The notes under the pieces: model-generated | Database searches by the model: none | What the model saw: the letters and a program-made list of their open reading frames with translations, nothing else | What the model was told of the DNA's origin: nothing | Assembly: GCF_051622035.1 (NCBI RefSeq) | Contig: NC_135357.1 | Coordinates: 37,183,691-37,247,690, forward strand | From: Arctopsyche grandis | Lineage: Eukaryota; Arthropoda; Insecta; Trichoptera; Hydropsychidae | Length of the DNA: 64,000 nt | Reading direction: 5' to 3' | Shown: positions 16,479 through 64,000 of the stretch, piece by piece | Numbering within the stretch: position 1 is the first letter of the stretch | How the letters are laid out: every line of letters starts with the position of its first letter | Position numbers and translations under genes: made by a program

Positions 16479-16785
16479 TTACTGGCACGACTGGAACACT
16501 CCCTTTGACTTCATGATTTCGAATTCCTTCTCAGCATCGTAGTCCCTGGAAAACGAAATAGATGCGTTATATTTTACGACACGATAAAACGTATCGATCG
16601 GTATAAAAATATCACCTGTAGAAATCGGCGTATTTCTTCCTGCGAGGATCGGCGACCACGGTCTTCCAAAGGACTGCCGTTGTTAGACTGAAAACGATCG
16701 CAATCGACAAATGTTTTTTGATGGCAGAGTTCAAGAGACCCCTCAGTTGGGGCTTGGCAATGATGCTAACTTTCGCTTCGGACAT
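16479..16785 (-). CDS. COX6C: cytochrome c oxidase subunit 6C (cyclope-like)
   Basis: Two coding exons, 16785-16616 and 16545-16479, join in frame over a 70-bp intron (donor GTGATA, acceptor TTTTCCAG) to give 78 aa. The protein begins MSEAKVSIIAKPQLRGLL, has one hydrophobic helix (SIAIVFSLTTAVLWKTVV), then DPRRKKYADFYRDYDAEKEFE and KSKGVFQSC. This is the COX6C plan: a short matrix N-terminus, one inner-membrane helix and a charged intermembrane tail. A splice acceptor (ATGTTTTAG) lies directly before the ATG, so a non-coding exon lies upstream. Confidence 0.93.
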
Positions 16786-38965: not shown

Positions 38966-39059
38966 GCTGTGGACATAAAATCTCTAAAATAAATGCATAA
39001 ACCAATTAGTTGATGGTCCGAGTGCCATTTACCGTTGCTTTTATTTGGGATCAGGTTGA

Positions 39060-39470
39060 ATAAATGCATTTTACTATACTAATATAAGTCTTCTTCTTAA
39101 TGCCCTGTCCGAATCCGGACGTTGGTGACAATTGGTTGGTGAAATCCGTATCGTTCTTCGGAACAGATCTTCGGCGCATGTTTCGAAGCCAAGACAACTT
39201 TTTCCTACCAATCCATTTCTTCCCTTCTATTTTCCCCATGGTATCAAACGGAGAAATTCGTATCATGTGTCCGAGGTACTCCATCTTTCTTCGCTTAATG
39301 ACAGAAATAAGTTCCCCGCCTCTCCCCATCATGCCGAGGACAGCTTCATTTGATATTTTTTTGGTCCACGGGATCTTCAGCATACGCCTGTAGACCCACA
39401 TCTCAAAAACTTCGTGCGGATGATCATCCTGGTATTCAGAATCCACGTCTCACATCCGTGTAATATCCGT
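39060..39470 (-). pseudogene. 3' fragment of an RTE-type non-LTR retrotransposon
   Basis: The minus-strand frame reads FEMWVYRRMLKIPWTKKISNEAVL, then LISVIKRRKMEYLGHMIR and IGRKKLSWLRNM. This is the usual C-terminal end of insect RTE-type reverse transcriptase proteins (FEMWCYRRMLRISWTDKVTNEEVL, RRKLEYLGHIMR). Upstream the expected YGCETW segment is out of frame (ETWIL), so the copy is frameshifted and truncated. Confidence 0.75.
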
Positions 39471-39617: not shown

Positions 39618-39824
39618 AGGCGGTGATCCGCTGGTGATCGACGGCGGATGCTCGTACTATGCTGCGAGGTGTGCTATCGTTGCTCCGTGGCAGCGGGTAT
39701 GATGCCATGGCCGGGTGCCTGGCTGACTGCAGCGGAAGGGGCGAGTGCTGGAACGGCACCTGCTACTGCGAAATCCAGTACTCGGGGGACGCCTGCAATG
39801 GGCCAAATCTGCCCTATCACCGAG
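39618..39824 (+). CDS. EGF-like exon of the RING-CH protein
   Basis: The acceptor TTTTTGTTTCAG precedes 39618 and the donor is CGAG|GTGAGA. In the main frame the protein reads AGCLADCSGRGECWNGTCYC then GDACNGPNLPYHRG, an EGF-like cysteine pattern. A stop lies 24 bases before ATG 39659. A different frame of the same exon is open from 39619 to 39699, ending at TGA 39700-39702. Confidence 0.75.
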
Positions 39825-42800
39825 GTGAGACCACCGTCTGAATTGATCACCGACGGAATAAATCAAATATTAATTTCGGTGTTGGAAATTGATATTGTAT
39901 ATTCCGATCCAACCTTGACGGTCGTTCATTATTTAAAAATGTTTTAATATTCAAAACGTCGATCGTATCACATCATATTTGAATTTCAATTCGCATCAGT
40001 ATAAGTAGTTGATTCGTATTCATCGGTCAAATGTAGGGGTTCCAAAATACCGCCCGAAAGAAAAAGCCGGTTTTCGGTTTTTTTAGAAATAAAAAGCCGG
40101 TTGGCCGGCTTTCACTGGTTTCAGAAAATTAAGATTTTTTTTAAGTTTAAAATTTTTGTATCGAGAAAATAATGTAAATATGTATTATATTATGCAAAAA
40201 AATAGTTTTTTTAAAATTAAATTGAGTTAAAAACATTATGAACTTTCATAAGATCATTATTATATATATTTTATTATTACAAATAATACAATTTGTATTA
40301 CACAATATGTATATCACAGCCGTAAAATGGCAGATCTTAAATACGCACAAATAATTAAATGATTTAAATAAGCTACTATCAATAATATATTATTAAAAAA
40401 ATAATGTGTAACCTCACAGAAAAACTATAATTGTGGAGTCGTGAATAGATATTAAGAAAACTGCTGAGATTCGTTCCGAGGTGCGCTCAACGTTGAAATA
40501 TTTCCATCTTACAAAGTTGTTTTTTCGCATTTGTTTAAGCTTAAAAACCCAAAAGCTTGTCAAACCGTTGCAAATTCCGGAAACAAATTCATTAGAAACG
40601 GCATATCACAAACATTTTAAAACCATAATAAAAAGTAGGTGTGTTGCCTCAAAATACATATAAAGGGCTTCCCATGCATTTTGCAAAAGGAAAATTCCCA
40701 TGCATTTTGTCATAAAGCGTTTGAGTTAAACTACTTTTTTGTTGTTGTCAAGTACAACGTTTTGCGATAGTAATGCTTTCTATTATTTTATACCTGAACT
40801 TGTGTAGGTCATTGAAACTACTTTCAATAATATTTTATTGGCTTATGACCTGGTCTCCGCCCAGTACTAAATCTCAAAGAAACCGCTAAGTGGTGTACCT
40901 TATTTTTGTTGTTCAAAGAAATACACGCCTACTACCTAAGAGAGTTTAGATATACACATTTATTTTGATCTTTCATTGACATTTGAAATTCATTATTTTT
41001 AATTTTGAGGAAAAAACATTAATTAAAGAAAACCTTAAAAAGCCGGTTTTTTGAAAAATGGTAAAAAAGCCGGCTTGTCGGTATTAGTAAAAATCGGCTT
41101 GGAAGTACTATGTAGGTCAAACGCTAACATTGGAATCGTTTTTTGATTTTCAGGAATAGGGGGCGTGTTCCTCGGCGTGGCTCTCGTCTGTGGGATGCAG
41201 CTCTTGGCGTGCGTGGCCGCCGACTATAGACGACAGAAGAGACCGAAGATATTGAGAGCATGTCGCGTCACCACGCAGAAGCTGCTCTATCTCGTCGTCT
41301 TCTTCGCGGCTCTTATACGAGCCGCTTACTTTTCAGCCCCGGTATATATTTTATATTATATCTATGATAACCCACCGGCAAATTCCTTTTGATTTTACTG
41401 AATACAAAGAAGTCCAAGCCTATCAAACACAGCTATGCACATAATTATACAGAATGGGGCATTTGAGGCTTATTAAATTTCAAACAATTCTAATATGATG
41501 GGTACAACTTTAAGAAACGGGTATGCGATTCAACTCGGGTATGCGATGAGTAGTTCCAGATTATTTTCTCGAATTCCTTTAGAATTCACCCAAGTAGTTG
41601 TTATTTTAGTTTAATGAATAGGAGAATACATTGTGACAAATTTAATTGATTTGGCATGTGTTAAAGACCTGTCACTTCCTCTTGTTCTCTCTTCCGGTGT
41701 GAGCAGGAGAATATATTGTGGCACAGATTTGGGTAGTTCAGTATGTGTTGGAGATCTGTCTTTTCTTCTCGGCCTCTCTACAATCTACTCCACCATCTAT
41801 GTAAAGTCGTTCATAACTGTTCACCCGGTGACGTAGCTAGAAATTTTGGGCCCTTGTGCAAAAAATTACGTAATAATATTCCCTAATAAAATAATTGTAA
41901 CTACATATTTGCACATAATAAATATTCATATAATAGAGTAAATAAGTCTTGATTATCCAATGGAGTTTCTTTTGAAGTTAATCATTTTTTTAACTTACTG
42001 AATGACTTTTCAACACTCGCCACTGTTATTGGTCGAGTAAAAAATAGCATAAACTTTTGAAAATTTCCCTTCAAAGCAACTGTATTTCGTGATAAGTGAT
42101 TATGAAAATTGTCTTATGGTTATATTTTCAGTCAAGTCTTTTTCAATAGTGTAGTTATATGAATGAACTGGGCATCAAGTTCCTCTGAAAAAACTTCTGG
42201 GTGTTTTTTTCGGGTTTCAAATGATTTTCTAAAATATTTGCTTCTGATGTACATATTTATAATATTGCGAGGTTCGAGAAAACTAAAATACTTTTTCAGT
42301 GACTGCATTCCTTGAAAGCGACTTTTAAGTTGAACGGTTACCTTGTCAATAATATTGAGCCCGACGCTAACTCATCAGCATGACTTTTGACGTTTGTTTT
42401 CTAAATAATCATCTAAACCCCACTTACAGGCTATTTCTTACGCTTCTGATTTTATTTCTTCAAATGAATTTCGTCATTTTTTAAATTGGGTATATGTTCT
42501 GTTTTAACTTTCCATATTTTTAGATTGCTAATAATTATTTTTTCGTATTGAGTGTTTAGAAATTTGGGCCCTTTGTTAAGCTGGGCCCTCATGTTTTGCA
42601 TGACCTGCTGTTAGGTAGCTACGCCACTGTGTTCACCTCTCTATACGTCCAAATATAGTTTCTACCTTATGTGAAGTTTCCTAAGAATAGATCTTCAACA
42701 TTAGCATTTATTTTATGTGTATTCGTTGTGTTTGATATTGTTCAGCTTGGGTATTTCTTCTTCGGTATCTACATAATTGTTTTTAGTTTGTACGTTTATA

Positions 42801-45800
42801 TATTACATTATATATATATGATAGTATGTATTGGTTTGAGATTTTAGCGTCCCGAGTTTATTGTATTGACATCTGCAATGTGTGTTGCATAAACTGTGTT
42901 CAACTGTGTTATTTTAGTTTATGTATAATACGATAGATGGCTCGTTTTGTATTTGAATCTATCTGTGTATAAATATATTTGCCACTCAAAAAGATTAACA
43001 GTTTCATCAATATGTGGCGCTAAATTCAATTATGCCAAAATATTTACAAATGACAGCAAATAAACAAACCAAAGATGAAATTTTTTTCTGCAGCAAGCTT
43101 GATATTTAATTACAGAAAAATAGATTTTTTTTTTATGAATGAATTTTAAATAAGAAGAGGTTAGTAAAAAGCAGATTAGGTTTTTGAAAAAATATATGGA
43201 AAGTGCTACAGCTATTGGCCAAGATATAATTATTGGCCATTTGAAGTATAACAATGTAAATTGAAGGCAGGCTATCGCTATTAGTTACCATTGAGAGTGT
43301 AAAAGGTTCTCAGTAATGCCACAAGCCTCTTATTTATTTACATTGAAATCCATGTGTCTAATAACTGTACATCGGCCAACTTATTTTGCGTTTTTTAGCA
43401 TCTTTTTTTGTTATATTGGATTTGTCCGTATATTGAGCTATTATGGCGAGTGCATATCGATGGAATGATTGAAATTTTTACTACAATGGATTGATTCTCT
43501 GCTTTCCATTCAAGTTTATCCATTATAAAGAGCTTTTCACATTCGATGTTTCGCATATTATGAGTTTCTATTATATAGTCCTAACTTTTGGAAGCGAAAA
43601 ATAACAAAAATCATGTCTAATTTTTTTTTGCAGTATAAAGAGACGTGGTCCAGTACCCTGCTGTCGGCGTACTATCCTCTTCTAATGTCCGGCGCATCCT
43701 TGATTGTTTGTTTTTGGGCTGAGGTGAGTTGTATTTTCAATATATATATATGTAGTACAATATGCCATTACTGCATTGTTACTCTTTGACAATGTCTATT
43801 ATATTGAGTGTCAATTTGACTCTAAAATGTGCTATATACGGTCTAATGATTTTGATGCGTCAACGCTACTACTATTTCAATAATGGTTTGTGAATACAAT
43901 TTTGCCTTTTAATTGTATTATTATATTTGAATTTTTAGTAGTCATTTAATCCGATTTATCGGCCTCACTGGTGTTTGCGAAGAATCCCAGGAGCCCCTGG
44001 GATTCTCAACACATTTTGACGCTATATATATTTTTTACTTTATCTACATATGTACGTAATAACAATATGTATATGAAGTTTTGTAATCGTGCGAAAATTC
44101 GAACTCGAGATTTTGACTGATTCGAACTCGGAATCGATCACTGATCGCGTTTTCATAGGCCAAAAAAATGTGTCTGTGAATTTTGGGGATTTTTTTAGTG
44201 CTATCGAACTGAAACTTAGTATCGGTTACTGAAATTCTTATCGATACGACGTAAATTTTTTTCAAATTTTTAAGTTGACCGGAAATGGTACCTCCCCTTA
44301 TAGGTGTCCTCTTTTTGTTAAGTTTTTGAATTCAATTATCTCGCAAACCGCTAACCGAATCAGAAATTATAAATAGTAGTGTAATAGAAATTATAAACAG
44401 TAAATGTAATAGAAATTATAAATTTTATACCCTAATATTTTTTCATCTGAACCGGAAGTAGTACTTTTACTCTAGAGAATCGAGGTTTTCTTTATGTTAT
44501 TCTCAGAAGCCTTTTATTTTTATTTACTATCGGCGAAATTTGTTAGATTTAAAGTTGTTTTAACTGCGTATTAAATCAAATTAAATGTCTTTACTGCATA
44601 TTGAACATATCGAGATAACTAGAAATCGATTTTCAAGTATTTTATTTTATGTTCCAAAAAGCATTTCCCAGCAATTTGTTGCGTTGCGCCAAGTCATTCT
44701 ACATTCAAACTCAAAAATGACTATTTTGATTAACTAAATTTGTATTTATTCATTTTTATTTTCGTTTTATAACCTTTATATGAATATTACTTATTACAGT
44801 ATATATCAGAAAAAAAAATTAATACTGAGAATTGAATATTAGCTGAGATAAATAATAAAATAAAGCCTACCCCTTTTTTTCTAAAAAATGCCTTGTGATT
44901 CTTCTCGCAGAATAGCTTGGGATTAAAAGGGCTAATCCAGTTTTAGTAAAAATATCTTTCAATTCAATTTAATATTCAATGATCTTGCAAAAGCAATAAG
45001 GAAAATTTTACGCAATAGGAAATTAATAAAAAAAAAAGAACTCGACAGTGTAATTTACGCATAGTAGGAAAATAATATAAGACTAAAACATAATTCTATT
45101 CAGTATAAATTACTTTTTATATGATTCACGAAAAGAAGTTCGTTTTTTTTTTCAAAAATTTTGTTTGCAGTTTGCATATTCATATTTTTTAATACATTTT
45201 GTACCAGGAAGGCCAAGTAAAACCCAATGCGCCTTCCTGGCCAATTACAAACAATATAGCATTTTTATTATACAAGTTGCTGAATTACGACACTGAAAAC
45301 TCGCAAATTAACATAAAATTTATAATCATACTCAGTGGTGACATAGAAGGTAGGAAGGATTTTAGCCAATTTTTAATCGGGAACCGTTTCAACAATGAAA
45401 TCATTGTTGAAAAATTGGTAGGAAACGATCTCTGATAGGAAACGATCGACCTGGAGCACAAATATCAAGGTCTTACGAGCAGCACTACAGATATACTCAG
45501 TAAAATTATTTTCAATCGAGGTCAGCTCATGGGATCGAACCCGGCGCCTCTCGGTGTTAGGCAGAAGCTTAACGACCGAGCTATGCTGCTGATGGTTTTT
45601 TTAATCCATTATTATGAATCATTCGATAGATTATATCGACAAGTGTTATGTTATCTTTAAATCTTACCTGTTAATTGCATTATATAATCTAAAAGTTGCA
45701 TTTAACAAAATATTTACAGTCCAAACCATTCTGGATACATTGAGCGATAAATCGTCACGATAAGTTGTACTAGTTGGTAGACGAAGCGCGTCTAATCGAC

Positions 45801-48800
45801 CTCATTAGTCATACTGACGTGACTTGAATACTAACGGAGTAATTCGTCTTTGCAATTATTTAGGCAATATATCGCTCGTAGACTCGCAGTGATAAACTAG
45901 TAGTAGGGTGACCATATTTCCCACAATTCAAAACGGGACGCGCCGCAAAAAATTGCCCGCCCCTTATATAAAAAAATGTTTGTCTGTTTGTGTCTCGTAT
46001 AGGCTTCTAAACCACTCAACCGATTACGATGGAACTTTCAGGATTTATTGTATGCATGTCTGGGAAGCTTACTGTGAAAAAAAATCGGGCAAAACCTCTT
46101 AGTAATAATATTCATAATTACGATTTTACCGACGCGAAAATATGAAGCACCATCGTGTAATCAAGGGAATGTGTTTGTTGGTAACCACGTTACCAGTTGG
46201 TTTATGATGACACGGCGTTTAAGAGACGTTAGTAGAGCTCCAACCATCACTTGAAACGGGAATGAGAACGAGAACGGGGATTGCATGCCTTATTCTGGCA
46301 TTGCAACGCATGCCGGGTTCAGCTAGTATGCGAATAAAAACAATATCGAATAAATAAACAGTGGACGGACAAAATGGGACAAATCAAAAAATTGTACGAA
46401 AACGACGGGACGAACTCAAAGCACGTATAAAACGGGACTGCCCCGGCCAAATCGGGACGTATGGTCACCATAACTAGTAAGCTTAGTATTTTTCAATCGA
46501 TGATGCAACTAAAGTTGGGCGATTTATCTCTTCGGTAGATCGAAGGTAGCTCTACGATCGAAAGTCCCTTGATCATCGTTCCATTTATGCCCACTTTAAG
46601 GCGGTCAGAGGTTTCATAATCAGGCATAACCGGTATAGAAGCTAAGAGTGTTTTGACTTTTGTGTCGAATTTAAACTTGATAATGCAGTGTCAAGGGTTT
46701 TGCGTTTAGTCAAAATTACCCAACAATTCAAGATGTCGGCACGTGCACGTGCACCCACGCTCGCGCTTCCGACCTTCGTGACATCTGGTGATGAGCGTTG
46801 CACAACAATCGACAGACATTTTGAGTCTGTATCTACTATGTACATATTCACACGCCCCTCGCACACTGTTAGTATTCTGCGACAGTTTAGTGTGTCAAAA
46901 AAAAACCCCGACTGATTTCCACGATTTGCACGAAAAGTTTGACCTTGGGTTCCAGACTGCAACCCATCCGGAATACAAAATGATCGCATCGAGATTTTCG
47001 GTTGTGCACTTCTAAGCTGCGTTTTAAATAAAAATCTCCATTGCAGTGTCCATACAAATTTGTATATGTAATGAAATCACTGATATTTTAATCGCACAAG
47101 ATAGCTATAGCGTGAGACGTACGAGAACTGAGAATGCTGTCGCATTCGTGCAATGTGTTGTAACATTGTAAGGACGTAAAATAATTTCTTTCAAATTATT
47201 TCTTATTGAACTTTATAATATTATTACTAGTCTTCGGCGGTGGAGCGTGCTTTTGGAACAAAAAATGGGAGTTTTGGGGCTATTTTCCAGGAAAGAGGGC
47301 AAACTACAAAGCTAGAGAGCAAAACTAAAAGGTTCACCATAAAAATGAACAATGGTGCGCAGGGTCGCGCCGAATCTTAATTATTACAATATAATTCAAT
47401 GCAAGTAACTGTAAGTAAGTCATAACATGACGTTGACAATTACTCTTAAGGTCTGACCGCACTATACGCCCGTCGACTGCTGCAGCACGACACAACACGG
47501 CAAAGTTGATACAAAAGGCAACTCTGTCGCGTGATGCGTAGTGCGTTATATCTCATACAATTTCATACAAACAATATTTGGCCGCACGCTGCCGTTCGTG
47601 TCGCAGACGCATAGTGCGGTCAGACCTTTAGATTAGCCATTTTTAAGCGGTTTATATTACAAATACCGAGCGAAGCCGGGTAAAACAAATAGTATATGTA
47701 TTAATATAATTTCGCTATTTTGTCTGTCTGTTTGTCTGAGATAACGCTCGCCGTACTATAATAGTCGTTTCGATTCAACAGATATTTATTTATTTATTTA
47801 GCATTTTGGACCATTTTGGCATTACAAGAAGACCGCACTATGCGTCAAACGAACCATCCGACACTTGCGACAACAGTGTGCGACAATATTAGGTAAACCT
47901 CACTTGAACGACAGCGATGCGACACTATGCAGTAAATTATGTCAATAATTCGTTCGGTACCTCGGAGCAAAATGGACGAAACGGACGCTATTATTGTATC
48001 TTTGATATGCGAGGAAGAAGAACAATCGAGAAAAAACAAAAGATTATGGATACATGCTATTTCAAAGTCGCGATATGATTAAGGAGAATAATTGTCGCAA
48101 GGCAACCCCCACTCAAAGACATTTGCGTCACGTTGCGAACGACACCTTGCGTCAAAGTTGGTCGGAAAGTCAACTTTGACGCACGGTGTCATTCTACGAC
48201 ACGCGACTGTCGCGCAGTGCGTTATGTCTCATACAATTTCATACAAACAATATTTAGTCGCGTACTGTTGTGAGGTGTCGGATCGTTCGGTTGACGCATA
48301 GTGCGGTCAGACATTTACCGTCAAAAAAATATAAATTTACATTAACATAAAATATATACGTATTCCCTAAATAAATTAATAATATTGTTGCGTAGGGGTG
48401 GGTTGGGGATCCATACGTAAGGCCAAAGTTGGTTCACAGTATTTATTGAATGATTCAGGAGGTCCACGCGCAGCCAGCGCTCGTTCCAGAATCCTCCCTG
48501 TACCTCCTTTTAAAGGGCAAGCTACTCACTACAGCTTCCCCGATCCGTTTCTTTATCCATTGTCTAGGCACGTACATTAATAAGGGTCTCCATTGTTCAC
48601 TCCCGAATGCACCTAACCGGCGGATCCTCTTCTCCCGTTTTCCCACGTTACAATATCAACAACTTGCGTATTTCATATTACAGTTTTATTAATGTAAATA
48701 ATACAAAATACGAAACACAAACTCAAAACTAACAAAAAATTTAAGTCAAATTCTACCGACCGCTATACGCACGAACATCGTTTTATTTCTTGACCAAAAT

Positions 48801-51800
48801 GCAATGCGATACTGAAACGAAATGTAATTTGTCATCGCGGGTCGAGTGGGGGGTGAATACGATAGCATGTACATTTTACGTAAGCCTCATGCATAGGTTC
48901 GACTTTAGAGTCATTTTTAGAGAGCCAGATTTAGATAGAAGGAATCATTTTTATTATTTACGTTTCACTTACGATTACAATTCAGGAAGAAATTTGCCTC
49001 TTATCCGATTGTTTTCGTACCTCGCCATATTGCTCATTTTGGTCATCAATATAAGTAAATGGATCCTCCGCCATTACGATGGTGCAAAAATATCGTGTAA
49101 GACGCGTTTGAAATTTGAATTTCTGAAAAGTGACTGACGTCTATCCAGTTTTTAGTTCTAAACATAGATGGCGGAAGTAAAATAAAATTATTGGTATTTT
49201 TATTCAAAATAATAATTTTAGAGAGGACTTAAGTGCGTATTTTGAGTGCGAAGATTAGTTCTAACTAATACTAAAATTTAATCATCTGGTAATCTCATTT
49301 TCCTGTCCGTTTTCTAAGAAATGAGAACTGCAGCATCGTGCAGTGATGCGTAACATTTTATTTTTGTATCAAAATACGTCAGAATATGTCTGAAATATTT
49401 GCTATATTAAGTAGAATAAGTTTTTACACTGTACAAGTGCACCGTTTTAATTCAAATGGCCTATAACTGCAACGTACTGGTGAAACGTTAAAAACTCTGT
49501 TCAAAGTATTGTAGCGTATGCTAAAAGGAGCCGCCGTTATAATTGGTTTCGAGGATTATCTCCAGGCTTAAGTGCAAGTCGGCTAAACAATGAGAAACCC
49601 CCAAATGCAATTAGCGGCGATAGCGGCACACGGTCGCATTCCCGTGCAGTTCTTAGAACTGACAACGCCAAAGCGTGGGACTGCACATCCGAGTACGTGA
49701 CTAAACAATGGGGAAGTAACCGGACGTCGAAGATGCCCTGAGTGACCTGTCCGTTATAAGGAGGTACTTAGGCGATATGAAGGCATTCTGGACGGAGCAC
49801 TGCCAGTGTGTGTATCTCCTGAATCACCAATAAATGCTGTGACACGACTTTGGCCTTTTACTTGGATCCTCCACCCACCTCTATGCAACAGTATTATATG
49901 CTAGTCTATTCTTCTGGTTGCCTAGTCTATTCTATGGTTTTGGCGAATTACCGGTATACCGGTATTGCAATCCCTAGTTCCAGGCTCTGTCATACACAGT
50001 TTTCTTCACATCGGAAATATTATATACATATATAATGTAAAAAAAACACGACTTGATTATCAATTCGTATGACAATTGCTTTTTTTTCTTCCCCCTCCAC
50101 GTGTACGTAATTTTTTATTCATGTGATTAGGAATCAATGGTTTTTCGTCGAAATATACGTTTCGTGGTTCTCGTACTGTTTGTTTTTGACCTCGTCTCTC
50201 TTGTTCGACATAGTGTAATATAAAAAAAAAAAACGATTCTGCATGTTGTGATGTGGCTCAGTCGTTTTCCCACTCCTGAACTGCTCTGATGTGTTTCCTC
50301 CATTGTTACGGGTCCCCCGTCTGTTGAACTTGGCTCGTGTAGGTTTGATGATGTGTTCAAAACTGTTCTCAATAGTTTTTCGTATTAGCGTATAAATTAC
50401 ATTACCAAAAGTTGTTCTTTTGAAGGATTTCTAGATTAAGTTTGCGCACTTGACTGTGTGGTTACCGACTTGAACTAGACCCAAAATTTTCTCATCTCAA
50501 TTCTCCAAATCTGTTTGTATACAAACTATGGACGTAACTTTCAGTGCCTGAGAATGCCCAGGAATATATTCTATTAATAACTTAACTTATTAAGTATGTA
50601 TGATATATCATTACTTAATATACATATATGTATGTATATTGTAATTAATTTCTTTTATGGCTGTTTTATTTTCCTTAGCCGACTTATATAATTTCATCTT
50701 TTCTGTATTTTTTCATCATTGTATTTATTAAAGTTTTATAATTATGCCAATTTTTATATGTATGTATATGTACATATTATTTAAATCTTTATAAAGTATA
50801 AAAAGTAATTATTTTTTTTAATTGTTTTTCAACCCTTTTGACTGGCTCTACTTAAATACAATAAATTAAAGATCTTTCTCAAGATCGAGACCTGTTGAAT
50901 TATTTTTTAAGCCATGATTAGAGAATGTTAAAACATTCGTCAAAATCGTCTAGTTTCATAATATTAATATTAAATTGATCAGTATTGTCAGTATTTTTTG
51001 AATGAAACTGTCAATATATAATAAATAAAATATAGTCAGTATAAATATGAAATGGTCACTATTCATATCGACTATACATTTCGGCCACTATAAACATATT
51101 TTCGGTCAGTAGATATATTAGATGGTCAGTATTATTTGATTTTGATTTTTAAATGCTTTTTATTATTACGAAATTATGTTCACAATACATATTATATCTA
51201 TTTTAATAGCTACTGATCTACTGATCATTTTCTATTTTACAATTTTAATTTATTTTTGTTAGTAATCATAGTATTATATTATTCTAATGTGTGCAGCATA
51301 ATAGGAAAAATAGCTCAAAAACTTATTTACAATTCTTATAAATGCTCACAATACATCTAATATGTAATATAGGTATTTACTAAAAACTCTCTAAAGTCGA
51401 CGATATATAGCAGATCTTTAGTATTATTTAAAACTTGTGCAATTGTGATTATGCACGCTACTGTTTTATATCCATTGGTTGAATTATATGCTATTATGAA
51501 ACGATATAACAATTATTTCTATGAAAATGTGTGATTCAGAACGAAAAACAGCGAGAATATCGGTCTGTTGACATTTGACAATTATGCCAACTAAAGAAGT
51601 TGGCTCTTAATCATTGTTATAATGATCATTTAATTGATACCAGCCGTTCATTAAAATTAAACTGATACTACAGATGAAATACTTACCTTTTTTTAAATAA
51701 AGATTGACCAAATAAAAATATGTATTTATTTGTTCAAAACGTCGTTCAAAACTTGTTTCGATTTTTATTCAATAATATTTATGAACTCTCTAAAGAAAAG

Positions 51801-54800
51801 AATTTATAAATATGATTATAAGCACGTTCAATATTGCGCTTGTTTTAGCTTTCAAATTTCAAAACAACGTCTTCAGCTTACATTCTCGATCTTCGATGTT
51901 AATATTATTAAATACACTAGTGTTGTGCCCAATGAAATATCATCGCATGGGTGTTGGCATATTAAGTTATTAAATTAAATGAAATGTGTCAGTTCTGTTT
52001 TTGATCCGCACGCGGTCGATTTTTTTTCAAATATCTTTTAAATATATTTAATTTAAAAAAAAATGGTAAAAACTATCTTCCTGTCTACATGTGAATAATA
52101 TAAAATAATTAATTAATTAAATACATTTTCAATAGATGGCGGTAAACGCTCCGAGACTTAGCATCGTCTATTTGCCTAATAGTATATATAGAAGTTCTTT
52201 TATTTTGTTATTATATTCTTATACGTTTTGGCAGTAGTTATGCTGTGACGTACGTATAAATGGCTCCTATTCCAAGAGCTATTCGACTTCTCAATGAAAT
52301 CTTTGCTGCCATGCCTGAATGCGATATTTTCCACCTAAGTGAGCGTATATTATCGGATATTATTTTAACATATCTGGTAACCTACGCTCATCATTATTTT
52401 CTTAATTTGAATGTGATGTATGTGTGGAATCTTAATCCACTCTCATCCATTTGGGCTTAGCAGGGATGTTTTGTATCTGTAGCTTGTTTTTATTTATCAG
52501 AACAGGCTGCAGATGCAAGACATTCCCTTCTTTGTATTTTTCCTTATTTTAATTTTAATTATTACTATAAAGTTTTTTATGATTGTGTTATATGCTGTTT
52601 TTTTTTTTACTTTTCTTTTTTTTTGTTTTTGTAAATTTTATATCTAAATTTTTTGCTTTTTGTTCTATCTATTAATTTTTTATTTTTTGTTTTCTCCCTC
52701 TCTTATATTATTATGTAGGCCATTGTGGCGCATTAGGTTCCTCCTGTAATGCCACAATGGTCTAAAATGTTAAATAAATATATGTCGAATCGAAACGACT
52801 ATTATAGTACGGCGAGCGTTATCTCAGACAGACAGACAGACGGAATAGCGAAATTATATTAATACATATACTATTCGTTTTACTCGGCTTCGCTCGGTAT
52901 TTGTAATATAAACCGTTTAAAAATGGCTAATCTAAAGGTCTGACCGCACTATGCGTCTGCGACACGAACGGCAACGTGCGGCCAAATATTGTTTGTATGA
53001 AATTGTATGAGATATAACGCACTACGCGTCACACGACGGAGTTGCCTTTTGTATCAACTTTGCCGTGTTGTGTCGTGCTGAAGCAGTCGACGGCCGTATA
53101 GTGCGGTCAGACCTTAATAGTTAACATTCTGAAACTAAACTGAAAAAGGAATCGGGATCCGGAACTGAAAGAGGAATATGGATCTGGAAATGAAAAAAGC
53201 ATTCGGAACCGGAACGGAAAAAGAAATCCGGAATCAGAATTGAAATCAGAACTGGGAATCGGAATTGTAAAGTCTCTTTCGAAATTATATATTAGATTCT
53301 CATACACGAGCGTTCGAAAGACTTATTTTGTCATTTCGAAATTAAATTATCCTTAAATAATTATTAGCTTTAAACACATATATGACAGTATTTGTCGAGT
53401 CGTTAATGTTTCATGTGTTTGCTCTCGTAGATTTTCCACCTGAGAGACATACGGTGGGAGCGGCCTCAGTTCCTGTCCAAGTCCTTCCTCGGCTTCGTCA
53501 CATTCAACATCATCATCTATTCGCTGCTGGCCGCCGAAGTGGTGACCACGCAATTCGCCGACACCACCACGGAGAAGAAGGTTTGTTGTTGTTTTTGCAA
53601 AAAAAAAAAGCGAAACTCTTCGAAATTCGAAACTTCGAGACTCTTACGAAAAGCGAAAAGAGTCTCGCACTGTACGTGGAATTTTCAACGAGTGTGCTGT
53701 TTAATTTTATTTGTGTGTGTGTAAATTACATTCTTAAATGTATTAATTGATTTTTCTTTATTGATTTTCAGAGCTTTTATACGCACGTCTTCAACGGATG
53801 CTACGCTGTTTTCCTCTTCATCGTCGTCGTCTTTTTCCTCATTTACGGAGTTGAGGTGTTTTTTAAGGTGACTTTTTTTATATTATGTACATCCTAAATA
53901 CATACAATCTAGATATTTATCCCAGTGGAATATATTTAATGTAAAACAATACAGCCTGCGAGTAAGTCAAGCTTGAAGCTTTGTACAAATTGTTTGTAGA
54001 GGCAATAAGTGTCAATATTCATGTTGTATTATAATATAATTCAAAACATTATTGAATGTAATTGTATTCTTTACACTGTGAAGTTTTGATTAAATATTGC
54101 ATTTATTGATTTTATAGGTTCGAGGTGGCTTTTTAACGGAGACGACAGTCACAACGATAGTTACTCAGAGGAATTCGAACCGTCGCCAAGGCAAGTCGAC
54201 TAAAGACAAAGCCGACGAGAAGGGAGAAGATCTCGAGCAGTTGGCAAAACCGTGCTGTTCGAAGGACTTCCTCGACGATGAAGTCAAACCGGGCGACGGA
54301 GCCGAAGCCCATGATCAACTCGTAACAAAACAGGTAAAATTTTTATTAATCATCGCTTAGCTTATTTCGGATTTGGATAGTTTTGGAATATGAAGGACGA
54401 ATCATTGTAATTACAATACTAAATGAGGACAATGATATAAAAGATTTGTCGGACGAGGTTTATGGCTTATGAGACATTGCCGAAAAATGAACTTGATTTT
54501 TTATCGACTGATTATAAATTCAATGGATTGGTTTTCCACCCAAGTGATCCTTGAACTTTTTCAATTCGCGTGTACCCATGATTTTATCGATATTCGTATT
54601 TATGTATATGATTATTCTATTGCTAATACATATTAATATTAAAACATATCATAGTAATAAAAATATCGTATTAAAAGTCATCAATGTCAACTGTTTTTCA
54701 ATTGATTCAAATTTTATGCTTAATTTTCAGGGAGTACGAGTTTTCGCCGGAGCTACTGGCGTCAACACGTCTCAGCTTCACCAATCCAGAGTCGGACTGT

Positions 54801-57800
54801 TGAGCCAAGCGTTCATGCTGATAACCATCGTCGGATTCCTGTTTTCGGAGACCCTCAGCGAATTTTGGAAAACAAAGTACGGGAAAAGCTTTTTTTTTTA
54901 ATATTTCTAGCGGCTATATGTAAGTCGGTTTGGAGACGAGTTTTGAGTGTGTTTTTCGTTTCAGAGTACCCGTAAACTCTCGCAACTGGCACGACGTTGT
55001 GTTCCGTGTGGTCGAGATCGGAGTAGCGCTATGGTTTCCGTGCGTGCTCTGGAACTGCATGGCTCCCGAGCAGCTCTGGATTCTGAATCCTCGCCGTCTC
55101 CTGTCGCAGCAGCAACCTGAAAATGAAGCTGCCGCACCGCAGACGACAACCGATAAAGTAAACGTTATTTATTTTTTCATTTTATCCATGTTAGGCTAGG
55201 AATTAATTTTTGATTTATCAGTCTGTAGTATTGAGTGTCTTTTGATGGTATAATATATATGTATGTAGATAGGGGTTGCCTATGGGAGGATGATATATAG
55301 TGGGGGGGGGGGGGGGGTCCTTAGGCCTATTTTATCACTTAGTTATGGGTACGATTTAACTGTACATTGAGAAAAATACTTTGTATCTTAAAAAAAATGT
55401 TTGTGCATTAAAATATTTGTGCTTTTTCGGTGCATTAAACAATCTCTAAATATTTTGGCATTATAAAGTGAACATTAAAACATATGAAACGATCATTCGA
55501 AAAAATAGATTTTAGCATTAGAATGGATACATTACAGGCAAATTTTTCCTGAATTGTAATCGTAAGTGAAACGTAAAGGAGGTTTGTAAAAAAGTGGCAA
55601 GGTTGCAGTCTTCCGCTATTGACAATTGTCAACTGTGTGACAATTGTCAATAGCGGAACAAAAAAGTGTTTACTTTGGTTTCTCACTAGTGAAATGTAAT
55701 CTTATATACATAAAACAAACCCTAACCTAACCAAACCATATATACATCAAACCTAAACAAACGTTGGTTCGTATTTTGGTATTCGCCATGTTGCCGATAC
55801 AGTTCATCTGTCATTTTAATGCACATTTCATCCACTTTTTAAGTAGCAAATATTTTTTTCAACGATCAAATGAAACTTTCTAATATCCGTCATTTAGAAA
55901 TGCACACAAATTTTTTGTAATGTAAAGAAACTTTAATGTCCAAAAATTTTTTTGAATTCACATTTATTTTATAAACTGGACGTTTAAATTGTTCCCCTTA
56001 GTTATTAGATGAAAATAAACCTAGACAGAATTTTAAAATGATCACATTCAATTTAATGTAATTAAATTTTTAGATTATAAATTTATTCATCATATATGTA
56101 CATAGATGTATGAAATTAAATTCTTATAGCATATCATGTACAATGCATATATTGTATGTGAAAGCATTTAACTTTTATCTACTTTACATAAACGAAGAAC
56201 AACACTGATATGTGTTTGTGTATGTAAATTATCAACTTTTATCAGGTCACACAGTTTATCATGTAATTTCTAAAGAAATTGAATAGTCATATGACGGCCG
56301 TACGTCCACGCATAATTATATTTAAATTTGAATGCAGGACGACGAAGAGGATATTGGGGGGAGCTGCAGCAGCTTGGGAGCCCGCGACTGCTGGATTTGC
56401 TATGACTCGGAGCGAGCCGAACCCCTCATTCAACCGTGCAAGTGCACCGGGGACGTCAGCAGCGTCCACCATGACTGTCTCCGACGCTGGCTCGTCGAGG
56501 TAAAAACGAAAACCGACAAATTTAATACATCGTCGTAATATAATTGTTTTATAAAATCTTTGGTATTTGCAGAGTTCTTCTAGCGCCGAAGAGTTACGAT
56601 GCAAAGTCTGCAACAGTCCGTACGAAGTGGAAAAGACGACTAAGTATATACGAATCTAATGATCTCTCTGTGGTTATTTAACATTGTAGTGTGTTACTTA
56701 TTTCATTGTCCACCTGATTCCAGGGTTAGATGGGAGCGGGCTTTCACGACGCAACAGTGGCTGTACACGTGTGTGCTGGTGACGTGTATGACGGTGGCTG
56801 GCGTGGCCGCTTGGGTCGTCATCCAAATATTCGAGAGCCCCATCGTCAGGGTGCTCAGCGCCGGTGTGGCACTCCTCATTGTCTACGTGTGTGTGAAGTA
56901 TGTATTGTATATAGCAGTTTCAAATTACATAGTGTTTATTTGCTACTTTATCTATGTACGTAGTAACAATAGATGATGTTTTGTGATCATGCGAAAATTC
57001 GAACTCAGAATCGATCAATGATTGCGTTTTTATGATTTAGAAAATATGTGTGTGTGTCTGTGTATTTTGGGGTTTTTTTTGAATACCGTTAGTCCTATCG
57101 GACTGAAACTAAATATCGGTTACTAAAGTTCTTATCAATACGACGTAAATGTTTTTCAAATTTTTAAGTTGACCGGAAATGGTACCTCCCCTTATAGGTG
57201 TCCTCTTTTTTAAGGGTTTGAATTCAATTATCTACCAAACCGCTAACCGAATCAGACTGAATTTTTTTTACATGTAATAGAAATTATAAATTTTATACGC
57301 TAATATTTTTTGATTATTTTTACCTGAACCAGAAGTGGTACTTTTACTCTAGAGAATCGAGGTTTTTTATGTTTTTGTCAGAAACCTTTTAGTTTATTGA
57401 ACTGAAATTTCATGTCTAGAAGTTTAAGCTTAATACCAAGCTATGTATAAAATTTGGTAAGCATCCGTCAACCGGAAGTGTCAGTCACTTTTTTTTCGAC
57501 CCCTTAAACATGTGTGCTCTTCACGAAAAAGTTCAACTATAAATCTTGTATCAATGTGATGAAAATAAAATAAAATCACTGAATTTAATAAACTAGAAGT
57601 GGGATTTTTTGGTCTTAGAAAAGTCAAATATGTTGTGACCATGATTCTTTCCACACCTCTGAATGTATTAAGCTGAAAATTTATATTTGTATTCTTTATG
57701 TACTAGCTTAGAGCTGATAAGGTTTTGATTTGAATTCGTAAACTGGTAGTGGTATTTTTTTTTAAAACAATATTTCATTATTTTATTTTGACCTTTTAAT

Positions 57801-58357
57801 TTATTATTATTTTCTTGATATTTAATGTGTATAATAATTATAGTGATTTTAAATAATAAAAAAATTTCGAACAAAATCCGACAACCGGAAGTAGAAATTT
57901 TGTCTTGTGTAAGTTTACCTACATTTGCGCTCAATTTGAATCGAAAATGCTCTCATAACCGTGTATGTTTGTTTAATTATCGAATTTTGTTTTGTGACCT
58001 TCGTATATTCCTCAAATACATAGATAGTCGTGGGTTGGTCACATCCGAATATTTTTTTTTTGTATTTGTATGGGTCTAAAATATGTAATGAAATATAATG
58101 ATGTATTTGGTTAAGATTAGACAATTGTGCACCATTTTGAAAATCTTAACCTCACTTAATGATTCTTATATTACACAGTTCTGATGGATTTAAAAATTTA
58201 AATTTGCAGATTCCTCGGAGTTAACACAGTGACGGCTTACCAACGCGCTAAAGTGTCTGGCATAAATATAGTCAGCGGCTCCGGGGCGCAGTTGAACACA
58301 ATCAGTAAGACGGTAACCGTGGAGATGAACACCAAGTCTTCACTGCAGATGCATTGA
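39659..58357 (+). CDS. multi-pass membrane RING-CH (MARCH-type) protein with EGF-like N-terminus
   Basis: Twelve coding exons join in phase: 39659-39824, 41154-41341, 43634-43723, 53431-53580, 53772-53867, 54118-54333, 54731-54876, 54965-55157, 56338-56499, 56573-56643, 56724-56897 and 58210-58357 (1800 nt, 599 aa). Order: a Cys-rich EGF-like motif (about 19-47), seven hydrophobic helices (about 57-390), RING-CH C4HC3 (C433, C436, C449, C451, H459, C462, C479, C482), then two helices (about 500-555) and a polar tail. A RING-CH followed by two helices is the MARCH ubiquitin-ligase module; the 7-helix part recalls TOM1/THH1 or GPR137 proteins (YYPLLMSGASLIVCFWAE). An E3 role on endomembranes is inferred. 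The 5' exon is an acceptor at 39618 with an in-frame stop before ATG 39659, so the start could differ. Confidence 0.88.
40034..41114. mobile_element. hAT-type element in the intron after the EGF exon
   Basis: GGTCAAATG (40025-40033) and GGTCAAACG (41115-41123) flank the element, a slightly diverged target duplication. The left end is TAGGGGTTCCAAAATACC; the right end, read inward, is TACATAGTACTTCCAAGCC. Both arms carry AAAGCCGGTTTT/CCGGCTT repeats. No clear transposase frame remains. Confidence 0.65.
41826..42629. mobile_element. hAT-type element, 804 bp, in an intron
   Basis: TGTTCACC occurs at 41818-41825 and 42630-42637 as a perfect 8-bp duplication. The ends are CGGTGACGTAGCTA and, from the right, CAGTGGCGTAGCTA, the widespread CAGTGGCGTAGC hAT terminus. 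GGGCCC segments lie inside both ends. No intact coding frame is visible. Confidence 0.85.
43982..44005. repeat. perfect 10-bp hairpin in intron
   Basis: GAATCCCAGG, a 4-base loop, then CCTGGGATTC. It lies just before the dispersed repeat at 44030. Possibly part of an element; function unknown. Confidence 0.6.
44030..44420 (+). repeat. dispersed intronic repeat, copy A
   Basis: Matches 56940-57340 in the same orientation: ATGTACGTAATAACAATA, GTGCGAAAATTCGAACTC, ATCGGTTACT, AGTTGACCGGAAATGGTACC and CCAAACCGCTAACCGAATCAG or close variants in order. Both copies lie in introns of the RING-CH gene. Confidence 0.75.
45190..45594 (-). mobile_element. tRNA-derived SINE, copy 4, nearly complete
   Basis: The minus strand shows the A-box region (CATAGCTCGGTCGTTAAG), the B box in GCCGGGTTCGATCCCATGAG, the GAGGTCAGCTCATGGGATCG context on plus, and the GGCCAGGAAGGCGCATTGGG tail hairpin at 45205-45242. 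It matches copy 1 along its length apart from a short internal duplication near 45400-45440. Confidence 0.82.
45903..46471. mobile_element. hAT-type MITE split by a Helitron
   Basis: AACTAGTA (45895-45902 and 46472-46479) flanks the element. The ends are GTAGGGTGACCATATTTCCC and, from the right, ATGGTGACCATACGTCCC. A Helitron-like copy (about 45970-46326) separates the two halves, so the MITE is the older insertion. Confidence 0.75.
45970..46326 (+). mobile_element. Helitron-like element, copy without the hAT insertion
   Basis: Homologous to 22196-22698. It ends GGCATTGCAACGCATGCC (perfect 5-bp hairpin stem) then GGGTTCAGCTAG followed by T. It carries the uninterrupted site ATAATTAC where the other copy has a 144-bp insert. 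Confidence 0.72.
46480..47445. other. intron DNA, no feature supported
   Basis: Unrecognised frames near 46640-47015 have no family resemblance. No repeat ends with target duplications were found. Confidence 0.3.
47449..47627. mobile_element. Harbinger MITE, 179 bp, copy 1
   Basis: TTA (47446-47448 and 47628-47630) flanks ends AGGTCTGACCGCACTAT and its reverse complement. The copy at 52936-53114 has the same length in the opposite orientation. It is non-coding, and the terminus matches the larger Harbinger remnants. Confidence 0.88.
47628..47828 (+). repeat. composite repeat block next to the MITE
   Basis: In order: a segment ending CCGAGCGAAGCCGGGTAAA, a TCTGTCTG-rich piece with GAGATAACGCTCGCCGTAC, then an ATTTATTT run with TTTTGGCATTAC. 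The same order, inverted, occurs at 52740-52935, adjoining the other MITE copy. Confidence 0.7.
47829..48314 (+). mobile_element. Harbinger element with transposase start remnant
   Basis: Inverted ends: GACCGCACTATGCGTCAA at the left and TTGACGCATAGTGCGGTCAG at the right. A direct relation to the 179-bp MITE ends is clear. The left terminus is eroded, so no target duplication can be shown. An internal frame resembles a Harbinger transposase N-terminus. Confidence 0.7.
47972..48082 (+). pseudogene. 36-codon Harbinger transposase N-terminal remnant
   Basis: ATG to TAA reads MDETDAIIVSLICEEEEQS then RKNKRLWIHAI. The acidic run followed by a basic run and (F/L)W(V/I)H is the start pattern of PIF/Harbinger transposases. 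It stops before any catalytic motif. Confidence 0.6.
48386..48652 (-). mobile_element. solo LTR, 267 bp
   Basis: ATAT on both sides (48382-48385, 48653-48656) is the target duplication. On the minus strand it starts TGTAACGTGGG and ends CGCAACA. It shares TATAAA-like and AAGGAGGTAC motifs with the LTRs at 24492 and 49510. No internal region is present. Confidence 0.85.
48657..49505. other. intron DNA, no feature supported
   Basis: A 115-codon open frame (48790-49137) has no recognisable similarity or splice support. The rest is AT-rich. Confidence 0.3.
49510..49890 (+). mobile_element. solo LTR, 381 bp
   Basis: GTAT (49506-49509 and 49891-49894) flanks a segment that starts TGTAGCG and ends GCAACA. 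A TTATAAGGAGGTAC motif and AATAAA (near 49830) give promoter- and polyadenylation-like signals. A 4-bp duplication suits a Gypsy-type element. It shares motifs with the other LTRs. Confidence 0.86.
49895..51916. other. AT-rich intron DNA
   Basis: No gene parts are seen. Near 50980-51150 the motif GGTCAGTA/GTCAGTAT recurs at irregular spacing, a sequence also found near 61327 and 61639. Confidence 0.35.
51917..52260 (-). mobile_element. Helitron-like 3' part, minus orientation
   Basis: On the minus strand the end reads GCGATGATATTTCATTGGG, ACAACACTAG, then T, matching the element that ends at 23107. Shared pieces include GGTAAAAACTATC, ATAGATGGCGGTAAA and AATAATTAATTAATTAA (reverse). The matching 5' part is at about 52790-52870, separated by an insertion. 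Confidence 0.68.
52261..52795 (-). mobile_element. insertion ending in a LINE/SINE-type tail
   Basis: Separates the two halves of the Helitron. On the plus strand its right part reads GCCATTGTGGCGCATTAGG, CCTGTAATGCCACAATGG, then AAATAAATATATG: a stem-loop with GCGCATT in the loop and an AAATAAAT tail, closely paralleling the tails of the tRNA SINEs (the A-rich tail shows it runs left to right). The remainder is unrecognised. Confidence 0.45.
52936..53114. mobile_element. Harbinger MITE, 179 bp, copy 2
   Basis: TAA (52933-52935 and 53115-53117) flanks AGGTCTGACCGCACTATGC and its inverse. Same length as copy 1 and inverted relative to it, with few differences. Confidence 0.88.
55302..55317 (+). 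repeat. run of 16 G in an intron
   Basis: Sixteen consecutive G on the coding strand, in the intron between 55157 and 56338. Length is uncertain, as homopolymers are error-prone. Confidence 0.8.
55611..55658. repeat. perfect palindrome with 21-bp arms
   Basis: TTCCGCTATTGACAATTGTC plus A, a 6-base spacer, then the exact reverse complement. Intronic. May be the core of a MITE. Confidence 0.85.
56338..56643 (+). CDS. two exons encoding the RING-CH zinc finger
   Basis: Exons 56338-56499 and 56573-56643 encode DCWICYDSE, IQPCKCTGD, HHDCLRRW and then CKVCNSPYEV after the intron. Spacing C-x2-C-x12-C-x-C-x7-H-x2-C-x16-C-x2-C fits RING-CH (RINGv). The conserved Trp after the second half (RRW) is present, and all eight metal ligands are intact. 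Confidence 0.93.
56940..57340 (+). repeat. dispersed intronic repeat, copy B
   Basis: Second copy of the repeat at 44030-44420, same orientation, in the last intron of the RING-CH gene. It continues with TTTTACTCTAGAGAATCGAGG, also present near 44465 in the first copy. Confidence 0.75.
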
Positions 58358-61928: not shown

Positions 61929-64000
61929 ATGTACATAGTGTTTGTGTATAACATACGAAAAATTGGTACATGGAACGTTAGGACCATGTATCAAGCAGGT
62001 AAAATTGAAAATCTGCAAATAGAAATGAAAAAAAACCAAATACAGATGCTCGGCATAAGCGAAGCTAGATGGCCTGGAGCAGGAAAAACGATGCATTGCA
62101 ATGGATATACGACTTACTACTCGGGATCGCTTGACGGCACTCATAAGAATGGTGTTGCTGTGATTCTGGAAGACGACATCAGTAAAAGTGTGAGAAACTT
62201 TATTCCGTTATCTGAACGAGTCATGATGATACAATTAGCAGGAAAACCTATAAATGTTAACATAATACAAGTGTATGCCCCCACTTTTGATAAAGAAGAA
62301 AATGAGATTGAAGAATTTTATCAACAAATCAAAGAATTGATGACATATACGAAAAAACATGATGTTAACATTATAATGGGAGATTTCAACGCCAAAGTTG
62401 GAGACGAAGAAACAATGGGTATAACTGGTCGCTTCGGACTTGGAGAAAGAAATGAGAGAGGAGACAGACTAGTTCAGTTTTGCCAGGAAGAGCAGTATGT
62501 TATCTTGAATACTTTCTTTAAGCTACCTAAAAGAAGATTATACACATGGAAATCCCCAATGGACTGTCCTGATAATATTGTGCGAAACCAAATTGACTTT
62601 ATTTTGATAAACAGTAGATTTAAAAATAGTATAAAATCGGTGAAAACCTACCCTGGTGCAGACGTGGCATCCGATCATAATCTACTTTGTGGGAAATTGA
62701 AGATAAGACTGAAAAAGATTTTAAGAGCATCAAAACCTAAACCAAGATTGGATTTAGAGCTGCTTAAAAATCTTACGATCCACGAACAATTTACAAAAGA
62801 TCTCAATAAAAATTTTAAACAAAAATGTATTGAAGAAAATAGTAATGTAAACTTAAAGTGGGAAGGTATGAAATCAGCAATGACCCAATCTGGGAAAAAG
62901 TTTCTTGAAACAAATCAAATAATTAATAAAAAACAACCTTGGATGACGGATGAAATTATACATTTAATGGAAGAACGTAGAAAACACAAACATAATAATC
63001 CAACACAATATAAAAATATTCACCGCCAAATTCAAAGGAAAATTAAAGAAATCAAAGAAAAATGGATGGAAAATAAATGTAACGAAATTGAAAAATTACA
63101 AGAAAAACACGACGAATTTAACGTACATAAAAAACTAAAAGAAGCAACAGGATCATTCAGAAAAAAAGATTTCATACTCCTTAGGAATAAAGATGGAAAA
63201 ATCATTTTAAATATGGATGAGAAGAAATCAGAATGGACCGAGTACACAAAATTGCTCTTTAAAGACAATAGAGAAACCGGAGGGCATATTGAAGATCCAG
63301 AAACGGGACCATATATATTGAAATCCGAAGTGGAACATGCTATAAAACTAGCAAAGAGTCGGAAAGCTACTGGACCGGATCTGATTCCTGCCGAATTTCT
63401 CAAGTTATTGGACGACGATAACATAGAAAATCTAACAAAACTCTATAATAAAATATATTTATCAGGCGAAGTACCTAGCGATTGGTTACAATCCATATTT
63501 ATCCCGTTGCCCAAAAAGAGTAACGCGAGGACGTGTAGCGACTTCAGAATAATTAGCCTAATGAGTCACACATTGAAGATCCTACTAAAGATAATACAGG
63601 GCAGAATTTACTCACGGTGTGAAGAGGCGATTAGCAGAGAGCAGTTTGGGTTCAGACAAGGCTTGGGTACCCGAGAGGCCCTTTTCTGTATGAAAACACT
63701 ACTCCAAAGATGCAGAGAAGTCCGTAAACCTGTGTACATCTGCTTTATAGACTTTGAAAAGGCCTTTGACCGTGTCCAACACGCTCGCCTGATGGAAACA
63801 TTAAAAAATATTGGCCTGGATGACAGAGATGTCAGATTGCTACGAAATATTTATTGGAATCAGACTGCAGTAGTACGTGTCGATGATCAATTCACTGATG
63901 AGATTCCTATAGAACGGGGCGTCAGGCAAGGATGCATCCTATCACCTACTCTTTTTAACACCTACACCGAATCCATCTTCCACGATGCTCTCCAAGAGGC
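61929..64000 (+). CDS. RTE-type non-LTR retrotransposon ORF (endonuclease-reverse transcriptase), open at the right edge
   Basis: An uninterrupted frame of about 690 codons from ATG 61929 (stop TAA six bases before) to the end of the window. An APE-type endonuclease comes first: GTWNVRTM (13-20), SEARWPG, VYAPTF, GDFNAKVG (151-158) and SDHNLL (248-253). A linker follows, then reverse transcriptase: RKATGPDLIPAEFLK, FIPLPKKSN with FRIISLMSHTLKILLK, EQFGFRQG, motif A FIDFEKAFDR (606-615) and motif B ERGVRQGCILSPTLFN (from 662). The catalytic YADD motif would lie beyond the edge. All visible motifs are intact, so this is a young copy. Confidence 0.9.
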   Translation, partial: MYIVFVYNIRKIGTWNVRTMYQAGKIENLQIEMKKNQIQMLGISEARWPGAGKTMHCNGYTTYYSGSLDGTHKNGVAVILEDDISKSVRNFIPLSERVMMIQLAGKPINVNIIQVYAPTFDKEENEIEEFYQQIKELMTYTKKHDVNIIMGDFNAKVGDEETMGITGRFGLGERNERGDRLVQFCQEEQYVILNTFFKLPKRRLYTWKSPMDCPDNIVRNQIDFILINSRFKNSIKSVKTYPGADVASDHNLLCGKLKIRLKKILRASKPKPRLDLELLKNLTIHEQFTKDLNKNFKQKCIEENSNVNLKWEGMKSAMTQSGKKFLETNQIINKKQPWMTDEIIHLMEERRKHKHNNPTQYKNIHRQIQRKIKEIKEKWMENKCNEIEKLQEKHDEFNVHKKLKEATGSFRKKDFILLRNKDGKIILNMDEKKSEWTEYTKLLFKDNRETGGHIEDPETGPYILKSEVEHAIKLAKSRKATGPDLIPAEFLKLLDDDNIENLTKLYNKIYLSGEVPSDWLQSIFIPLPKKSNARTCSDFRIISLMSHTLKILLKIIQGRIYSRCEEAISREQFGFRQGLGTREALFCMKTLLQRCREVRKPVYICFIDFEKAFDRVQHARLMETLKNIGLDDRDVRLLRNIYWNQTAVVRVDDQFTDEIPIERGVRQGCILSPTLFNTYTESIFHDALQE

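Follow-up and report, generated by a model that had tools for sequence, protein, structure and literature searches.

The DNA considered here is a 64,000-nucleotide window, the whole stretch that was analysed, from the trichopteran Arctopsyche grandis (contig NC_135357.1 of assembly GCF_051622035.1, positions 37,183,691 to 37,247,690). On its plus strand, 12 exons between 39659 and 58357 join into one continuous, phase-consistent frame for a 599-residue protein, in which an EGF-like motif is followed by seven hydrophobic helices, then by a RING-CH domain and then by two further helices. The features of the gene, in window coordinates (aa, amino acid positions; TM, transmembrane helix), are:

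39618..39658, plus strand: 5' part of the first exon, following an acceptor; the frame from 39619 is open and coding-like (GGDPLVIDGGCSYYAARCAIVAPWQR up to 39696)
39659..39824, plus strand: exon 1, aa 1-55; EGF-like motif at aa 20-46 (39716-39796), N-glycosylation sequon at aa 32
41154..41341, plus strand: exon 2, TM1 (aa 60-78) and TM2 (aa 99-117) with a basic loop between them
43634..43723, plus strand: exon 3, start of TM3 (aa 134-152)
53431..53580, plus strand: exon 4, end of TM3, a basic loop and TM4 (aa 168-186)
53772..53867, plus strand: exon 5 (96 bp), TM5 (aa 211-229), found by an intron scan
54118..54333, plus strand: exon 6, long charged loop (aa 231-302), predicted to be cytosolic
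54731..54876, plus strand: exon 7, TM6 (aa 323-341)
54965..55157, plus strand: exon 8, TM7 (aa 362-380), then the linker to the RING
56338..56499, plus strand: exon 9, first part of the RING-CH; the RING starts at 56389
56573..56643, plus strand: exon 10, the last two zinc-ligand cysteines of the RING-CH; the RING ends at 56611
56724..56897, plus strand: exon 11, TM8 (aa 508-526) and TM9 (aa 532-550), a MARCH-type helix pair with a 5-residue loop
58210..58357, plus strand: exon 12, C-terminal tail (aa 551-599) and stop

How good is the exon chain? A sequence-only reading of the locus had proposed a protein of 599 residues made from phase-perfect exons, and both the length, counted from the ATG at 39659 to the stop at 58357, and the phases are reproduced: all 11 introns are GT-AG, their phases agree, and no stop interrupts the frame. 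The donors match 5-8 of nine consensus positions, with 10 of the 11 at six or more, a level reached by 14.6% of all 1226 GT dinucleotides between 39 and 59 kb. The 12 acceptors, that at 39618 included, carry 10-16 pyrimidines in 20 positions, compared with a mean of 10.1 over all 877 AG in the same interval; those of exons 9, 10 and 12 (11, 11 and 10 pyrimidines) are not set apart by this count. A rough codon score recognises 10 exons in their correct frame but misses exons 3 and 10 and marks shadow frames too; it is circular, having been trained on the same gene.

Exon 5 was absent from the first chain, a 567-residue model with six helices before the RING; this model was rejected once a scan of its introns had turned up the 96-bp exon. 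With six helices, the RING would lie on the same side as the EGF motif. The scan covered 10 introns and looked for in-phase exons that encode a hydrophobic stretch; of its eight candidates, two are versions of 53772-53867. The chosen exon (SFYTHVFNGCYAVFLFIVVVFFLIYGVEVFFK) has a hydropathy of 2.81, a donor that matches eight of nine positions, 16 pyrimidines of 20 at the acceptor, and the top combined splice score of the eight; the other six (four versions within 42659-42823, and one each at 49926-50036 and 51397-51528) were dropped solely for weaker splice sites. None of 1000 dinucleotide shuffles of the host intron yields a candidate at this exon's own thresholds, a figure that overstates the strength of the case because the thresholds were taken from the observed exon. 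Independently, the Pfam profile THH1_TOM1-3 (PF06454) also speaks for a real exon: including the exon in an otherwise identical piece of the protein lifts the score from 19.3 bits (profile positions 46-140) to 23.5 bits (46-184).

The best supported module is the RING-CH. The profile search proposed by the sequence-only reading (RINGv, PF12906) gives 50.7 bits against a cutoff of 21.6 (E 1.9e-13) over residues 433-482, covers all 47 profile positions and runs across the splice between exons 9 and 10, a match that is decisively beyond chance. All eight zinc ligands of the C4HC3 set are in place, as had been claimed, with the spacing C-x2-C-x12-C-x1-C-x7-H-x2-C-x16-C-x2-C and a tryptophan in CLRRWL. 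Right behind the RING come two helices (aa 508-526, hydropathy 2.23; aa 532-550, hydropathy 2.27) separated by five residues, which completes the MARCH module that had been proposed. Likeness to MARCH ligases such as MARCH8, and to viral K3, is thus twofold: a pair of helices close to each other comes after a C4HC3 RING-CH, and the RINGs match by sequence. Unlike them, the 599-residue protein carries seven helices and an EGF-like motif in front, so that its RING sits at residues 433-482 of 599; the usual MARCH layout has the RING-CH near the N-terminus with no helices before it. The sequence-only reading had called a receptor-like seven-helix part before this module non-standard. According to excerpts of PMC4897099, most MARCH proteins combine a RING-CH with two helices; four are given for MARCH5 and up to 14 for MARCH6, and MARCH7 and MARCH10 have no helices and a RING closer to the C-terminus.

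The part in front of the RING is harder to place. Hydropathy recovers the seven helices that the sequence-only reading had counted there; across all nine helices of the protein, the two behind the RING included, the mean Kyte-Doolittle value over 19 residues is 1.71-2.81. That reading had also seen a resemblance to TOM1 and suggested a search with PF06454. This hunch stands in so far as THH1_TOM1-3 is the top Pfam match of a 188-residue piece spanning helices 1-5 (23.5 bits, E 4.3e-05), aligned colinearly over positions 46-184 of the 273 in the profile, which correspond to helices 2-5 and not to the whole domain. The profile is reported for all five pieces of 117-198 residues that contain helices 2-4 (18.2, 21.8, 19.3, 23.5 and 17.9 bits for 117, 154, 156, 188 and 198 residues), and for none of nine derivatives of the 188-residue piece (eight block-shuffles and one reversal). 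What the protein shares with THH1/TOM1/TOM3, then, is seven helices by hydropathy and a profile match over helices 2-5; what sets it apart is a long charged third cytosolic loop and the fusion to an EGF-like motif and a RING-CH. GPR137 may be similar as well, as the sequence-only reading had suggested. In excerpts of an eLife 2025 survey of G protein-coupled receptor (GPCR) families, GPR137 has no domains outside the seven-transmembrane part, in contrast to the EGF-like and RING-CH fusion found here, and the RSF family, whose structural link to THH1/TOM1/TOM3 has weak support, does not occur in metazoans (PMC12716839).

The EGF-like motif is short: six cysteines in 27 residues, spaced C-x3-C-x5-C-x4-C-x-C-x8-C as in EGF domains. 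Its presence had been noted by the sequence-only reading. The profile search proposed with it gave a divided answer, since EGF_2 reaches 22.7 bits on an excised 41-residue piece, above its cutoff of 22.1, but falls under it in the full protein (17.8 bits). Teneurin and tenascin EGF models match this part as well, below their cutoffs, and the 567-residue model has weak matches here to reelin in the PDB (E 0.09 and above). The lumenal placement suggested for the motif agrees with the loop charges. Lysines plus arginines number 4 at the N-terminus and then 8, 1, 4, 2, 15, 3, 14, 0 and 5 from loop to loop, which gives 8, 4, 15, 14 and 5 on the predicted cytosolic side versus 1, 2, 3 and 0 on the lumenal side; acidic residues, too, are frequent in the two big cytosolic stretches (14 and 21), whose lysines plus arginines within 15 residues of the helices number 3 and 5. 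These charges point to a lumenal or extracellular EGF motif and to a cytosolic RING-CH and C-terminal tail. A sequon, NGT, falls inside the motif, on the predicted lumenal side, and a second one, NTS (aa 314), in a predicted cytosolic loop.

What might such a protein do? The favoured reading, held with somewhat better than even confidence, is that one gene encodes a nine-helix membrane ubiquitin ligase (E3) with a cytosolic RING, whose helices set the membrane, perhaps an endolysosomal one, and choose neighbouring substrates. The RING-CH should confer ubiquitin ligase activity and, to judge by its family, would recruit an E2 loaded with ubiquitin; the TOM1-like bundle, together with the MARCH helix pair, would keep the ligase in one kind of membrane and, again as their families suggest, select neighbouring membrane proteins, which would be ubiquitinated and sent to lysosomal degradation. 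MARCH2 and MARCH4 direct their targets to lysosomes (PMC4897099, excerpts). The bundle would act mainly as an address and a substrate-choosing part, with the EGF knob perhaps providing a further contact in the lumen. An endolysosomal or vacuolar address is preferred by analogy, because GPR137 is reported to be lysosomal and to act on mTORC1 (PMC12716839, excerpts), and because TOM1 co-purifies with the small GTPase ARL8 and works with it in tobamovirus replication (PMC3234234, excerpts). Ligand sensing by the EGF and seven-helix parts is possible, if unsupported.

Several observations weigh against this picture: (i) the splice that joins the seven helices to the RING-CH is predicted solely from splice signals and phase, and the acceptor of exon 9 is an average one (11 pyrimidines of 20, the mean for AG in 39-59 kb being 10.1); (ii) even at its best, the THH1_TOM1-3 match stays below the Pfam cutoff (23.5 versus 25 bits) and covers helices 2-5 alone; (iii) the same match is lost in all six constructs longer than 198 residues (224, 232, 281, 348, 567 and 599), presumably because of HMMER's filters; (iv) helices 6-7 by themselves match nothing in either of two pieces; (v) a PDB sequence search with the seven-helix part, in which solved GPCRs could have appeared, returns no match up to E 10; (vi) the RING similarity fails to tell a Doa10-like from a MARCH8-like ligase; (vii) upstream scans offer no convincing signal-peptide exon, strict settings giving none at all; and (viii) the endolysosomal location is a preferred guess, made by analogy alone. 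Given the loss of the profile match in the longer constructs, kinship of the helices with THH1/TOM1 is likely, not established.

Could the protein instead be a ligase for quality control in the endoplasmic reticulum, like Doa10/MARCH6 or HRD1, with many helices that bring misfolded membrane proteins to a RING in the cytosol? This is unlikely, though it has a natural starting point: in a phmmer search of the PDB with the 567-residue model, the best match of the RING is Doa10 (1.2e-06). The next, an entry named cellular modulator of immune recognition (c-MIR), presumably MARCH8, is nearly equal (6.5e-06), followed by ORF K3 (7.6e-06), and along the full-length Doa10 chain the match consists of a single stretch over the RING. 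In Doa10 and MARCH6 the RING is N-terminal, whereas here it stands behind seven helices; those proteins have no EGF motif, and neither this motif nor the TOM1-like helices find a place in the quality-control model. What remains shared is the combination of many helices with a RING-CH, the pattern of MARCH6 (PMC4897099, excerpts).

It is rather improbable that two adjacent genes, or alternative transcripts of one, encode the seven helices on the one hand and the RING-CH with its two helices on the other, the junction of exons 8 and 9 being an accident of modelling. No domain model spans this junction, at which the acceptor is the average one noted above; an in-frame ATG at 56332-56334 (MQDDEED), directly before that acceptor, would allow a transcript for the RING-CH part only; and the 1180-bp intron between the two exons contains AATAAA or ATTAAA six times. 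Against this, the phase is right on both sides of the junction without a stop, and exon 8 is open up to its donor, which at six of nine positions lies within the 5-8 range of the gene. Nor are the poly(A)-like words peculiar to this intron, as seven occur in the 1329-bp intron 1 and three in the 397-bp intron 54334-54730; they are fewer per base elsewhere (4 in 2292 bp, 24 in 9707 bp and 3 in 1312 bp; nine of the 11 introns were counted).

Weakest is the idea, put forward by the sequence-only reading, that the protein is a receptor-ligase, in which the EGF motif and the seven-helix bundle would sense an extracellular or lumenal ligand or condition, and this would change the activity of the attached RING-CH: the EGF-like motif and seven helices do stand in front of the RING, with the motif predicted outside and the RING inside, but no sequence feature shows sensing, the motif is just 27 residues long and weakly scored, and the ligand of GPR137 is listed as unknown (PMC12716839, excerpts), which leaves the proposal decidedly doubtful. 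The same low standing is given to its more specific form, in which a seven-helix receptor of the TOM1/GPR137 type, bearing an EGF knob in the lumen, would directly switch the RING-CH attached to it, without a G protein as intermediary. Such a direct layout was not found described in the extracts of openly licensed PMC papers, among the matches listed.

Has the fusion been seen before? Searches of prokaryotic and viral collections, which have no bearing on animals, confirmed as relatives of the 599-residue protein none of 15 pattern matches in prokaryotic contigs and none of 24 in viral contigs, and as relatives of the RING-CH module none of six in viral contigs; NCBIfam has no match for the 567-residue model. 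Drosophila CG2991 is presumably a RING-CH protein of the fly, perhaps with an EGF-like site, and may be an orthologue. Papers that mention CG2991 name the gene in lists, in the extracts available, without describing the protein. No description of EGF, seven helices and RING-CH in one protein was found in extracts of the openly licensed PMC papers, among the matches listed, a scope that leaves subscription papers and preprints outside. For six arthropod vectors, a survey counts 11-22 RINGv proteins per species, the words "EGF" and "transmembrane" both being absent from its main text as far as excerpted (PMC3804464), and the excerpts of a survey of the ubiquitin system (PMC4327156) do not name this layout. 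Uncharacterised orthologues very likely sit in databases.

If the model is true, a TOM1-like seven-helix bundle and a ubiquitin ligase share one chain, and the definition of a MARCH ligase widens. To our knowledge, the role of THH1/TOM1-type bundles in animals is poorly known; a fused E3 would provide a direct handle on it, through substrates, membrane and partner GTPases. An animal TOM1-like bundle fused to a RING-CH would also add to the GPR137/RSF picture drawn in the excerpts of the eLife survey (PMC12716839).

The N-terminus of the 599-residue model is uncertain. Its frame meets a stop between the acceptor at 39618 and the ATG at 39659, and the frame that looks coding after this acceptor is one off the EGF frame: opened at 39619, it reaches 12.7 bits in the codon score over 26 codons, ahead of the other two frames (6.3 and 1.3), and ends at a stop at 39700-39702. 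This coding-like frame within 39618-39702 points to a missing N-terminal part or to a frame change in the assembly. Either 39618-39658 is 5' untranslated and the protein starts at M1 or at M17, whose context, GCCATGG, is favourable for initiation, or else it begins upstream, with a frame change (assembly error or mutation) before 39700. Six signal-peptide exon candidates from a relaxed upstream scan were set aside, as their codon scores are all negative; so was the best of a further upstream scan, 14545-14636 (12.1 bits), which sits in GC-rich sequence and lacks a hydrophobic start. A GC-rich island extends over 14501-15500 (0.55-0.77 per 250 bases, compared with 0.21-0.38 in 12751-14500 and 15501-16500) and is perhaps a promoter common to a minus-strand gene and the 599-residue protein's gene.

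Elsewhere in the window, in which Rfam finds no match, minus-strand coding-like segments rich in Ser, Lys and Gln lie within 6058-12380. Three of them (10672-11793, 9769-10347 and 6058-7092) have no Pfam match above cutoff, the first also lacking a PDB match, and another, 12162-12380, has one weak match (0.025) that is likely due to chance. A minus-strand open reading frame of 132 residues, 39051-39449, has its high end 168 bases before the first exon; we take it to resemble the tail of a non-LTR reverse transcriptase, although Pfam gave no such match. A 25-bp tandem repeat of about four copies occupies 53138-53245; it lies in the 9.7-kb intron and ends 185 bases before exon 4. Near the end of the window, at 63621-63791, lies a reverse transcriptase fragment of a retroelement (PF00078, 30.8 bits, cutoff 29.6).

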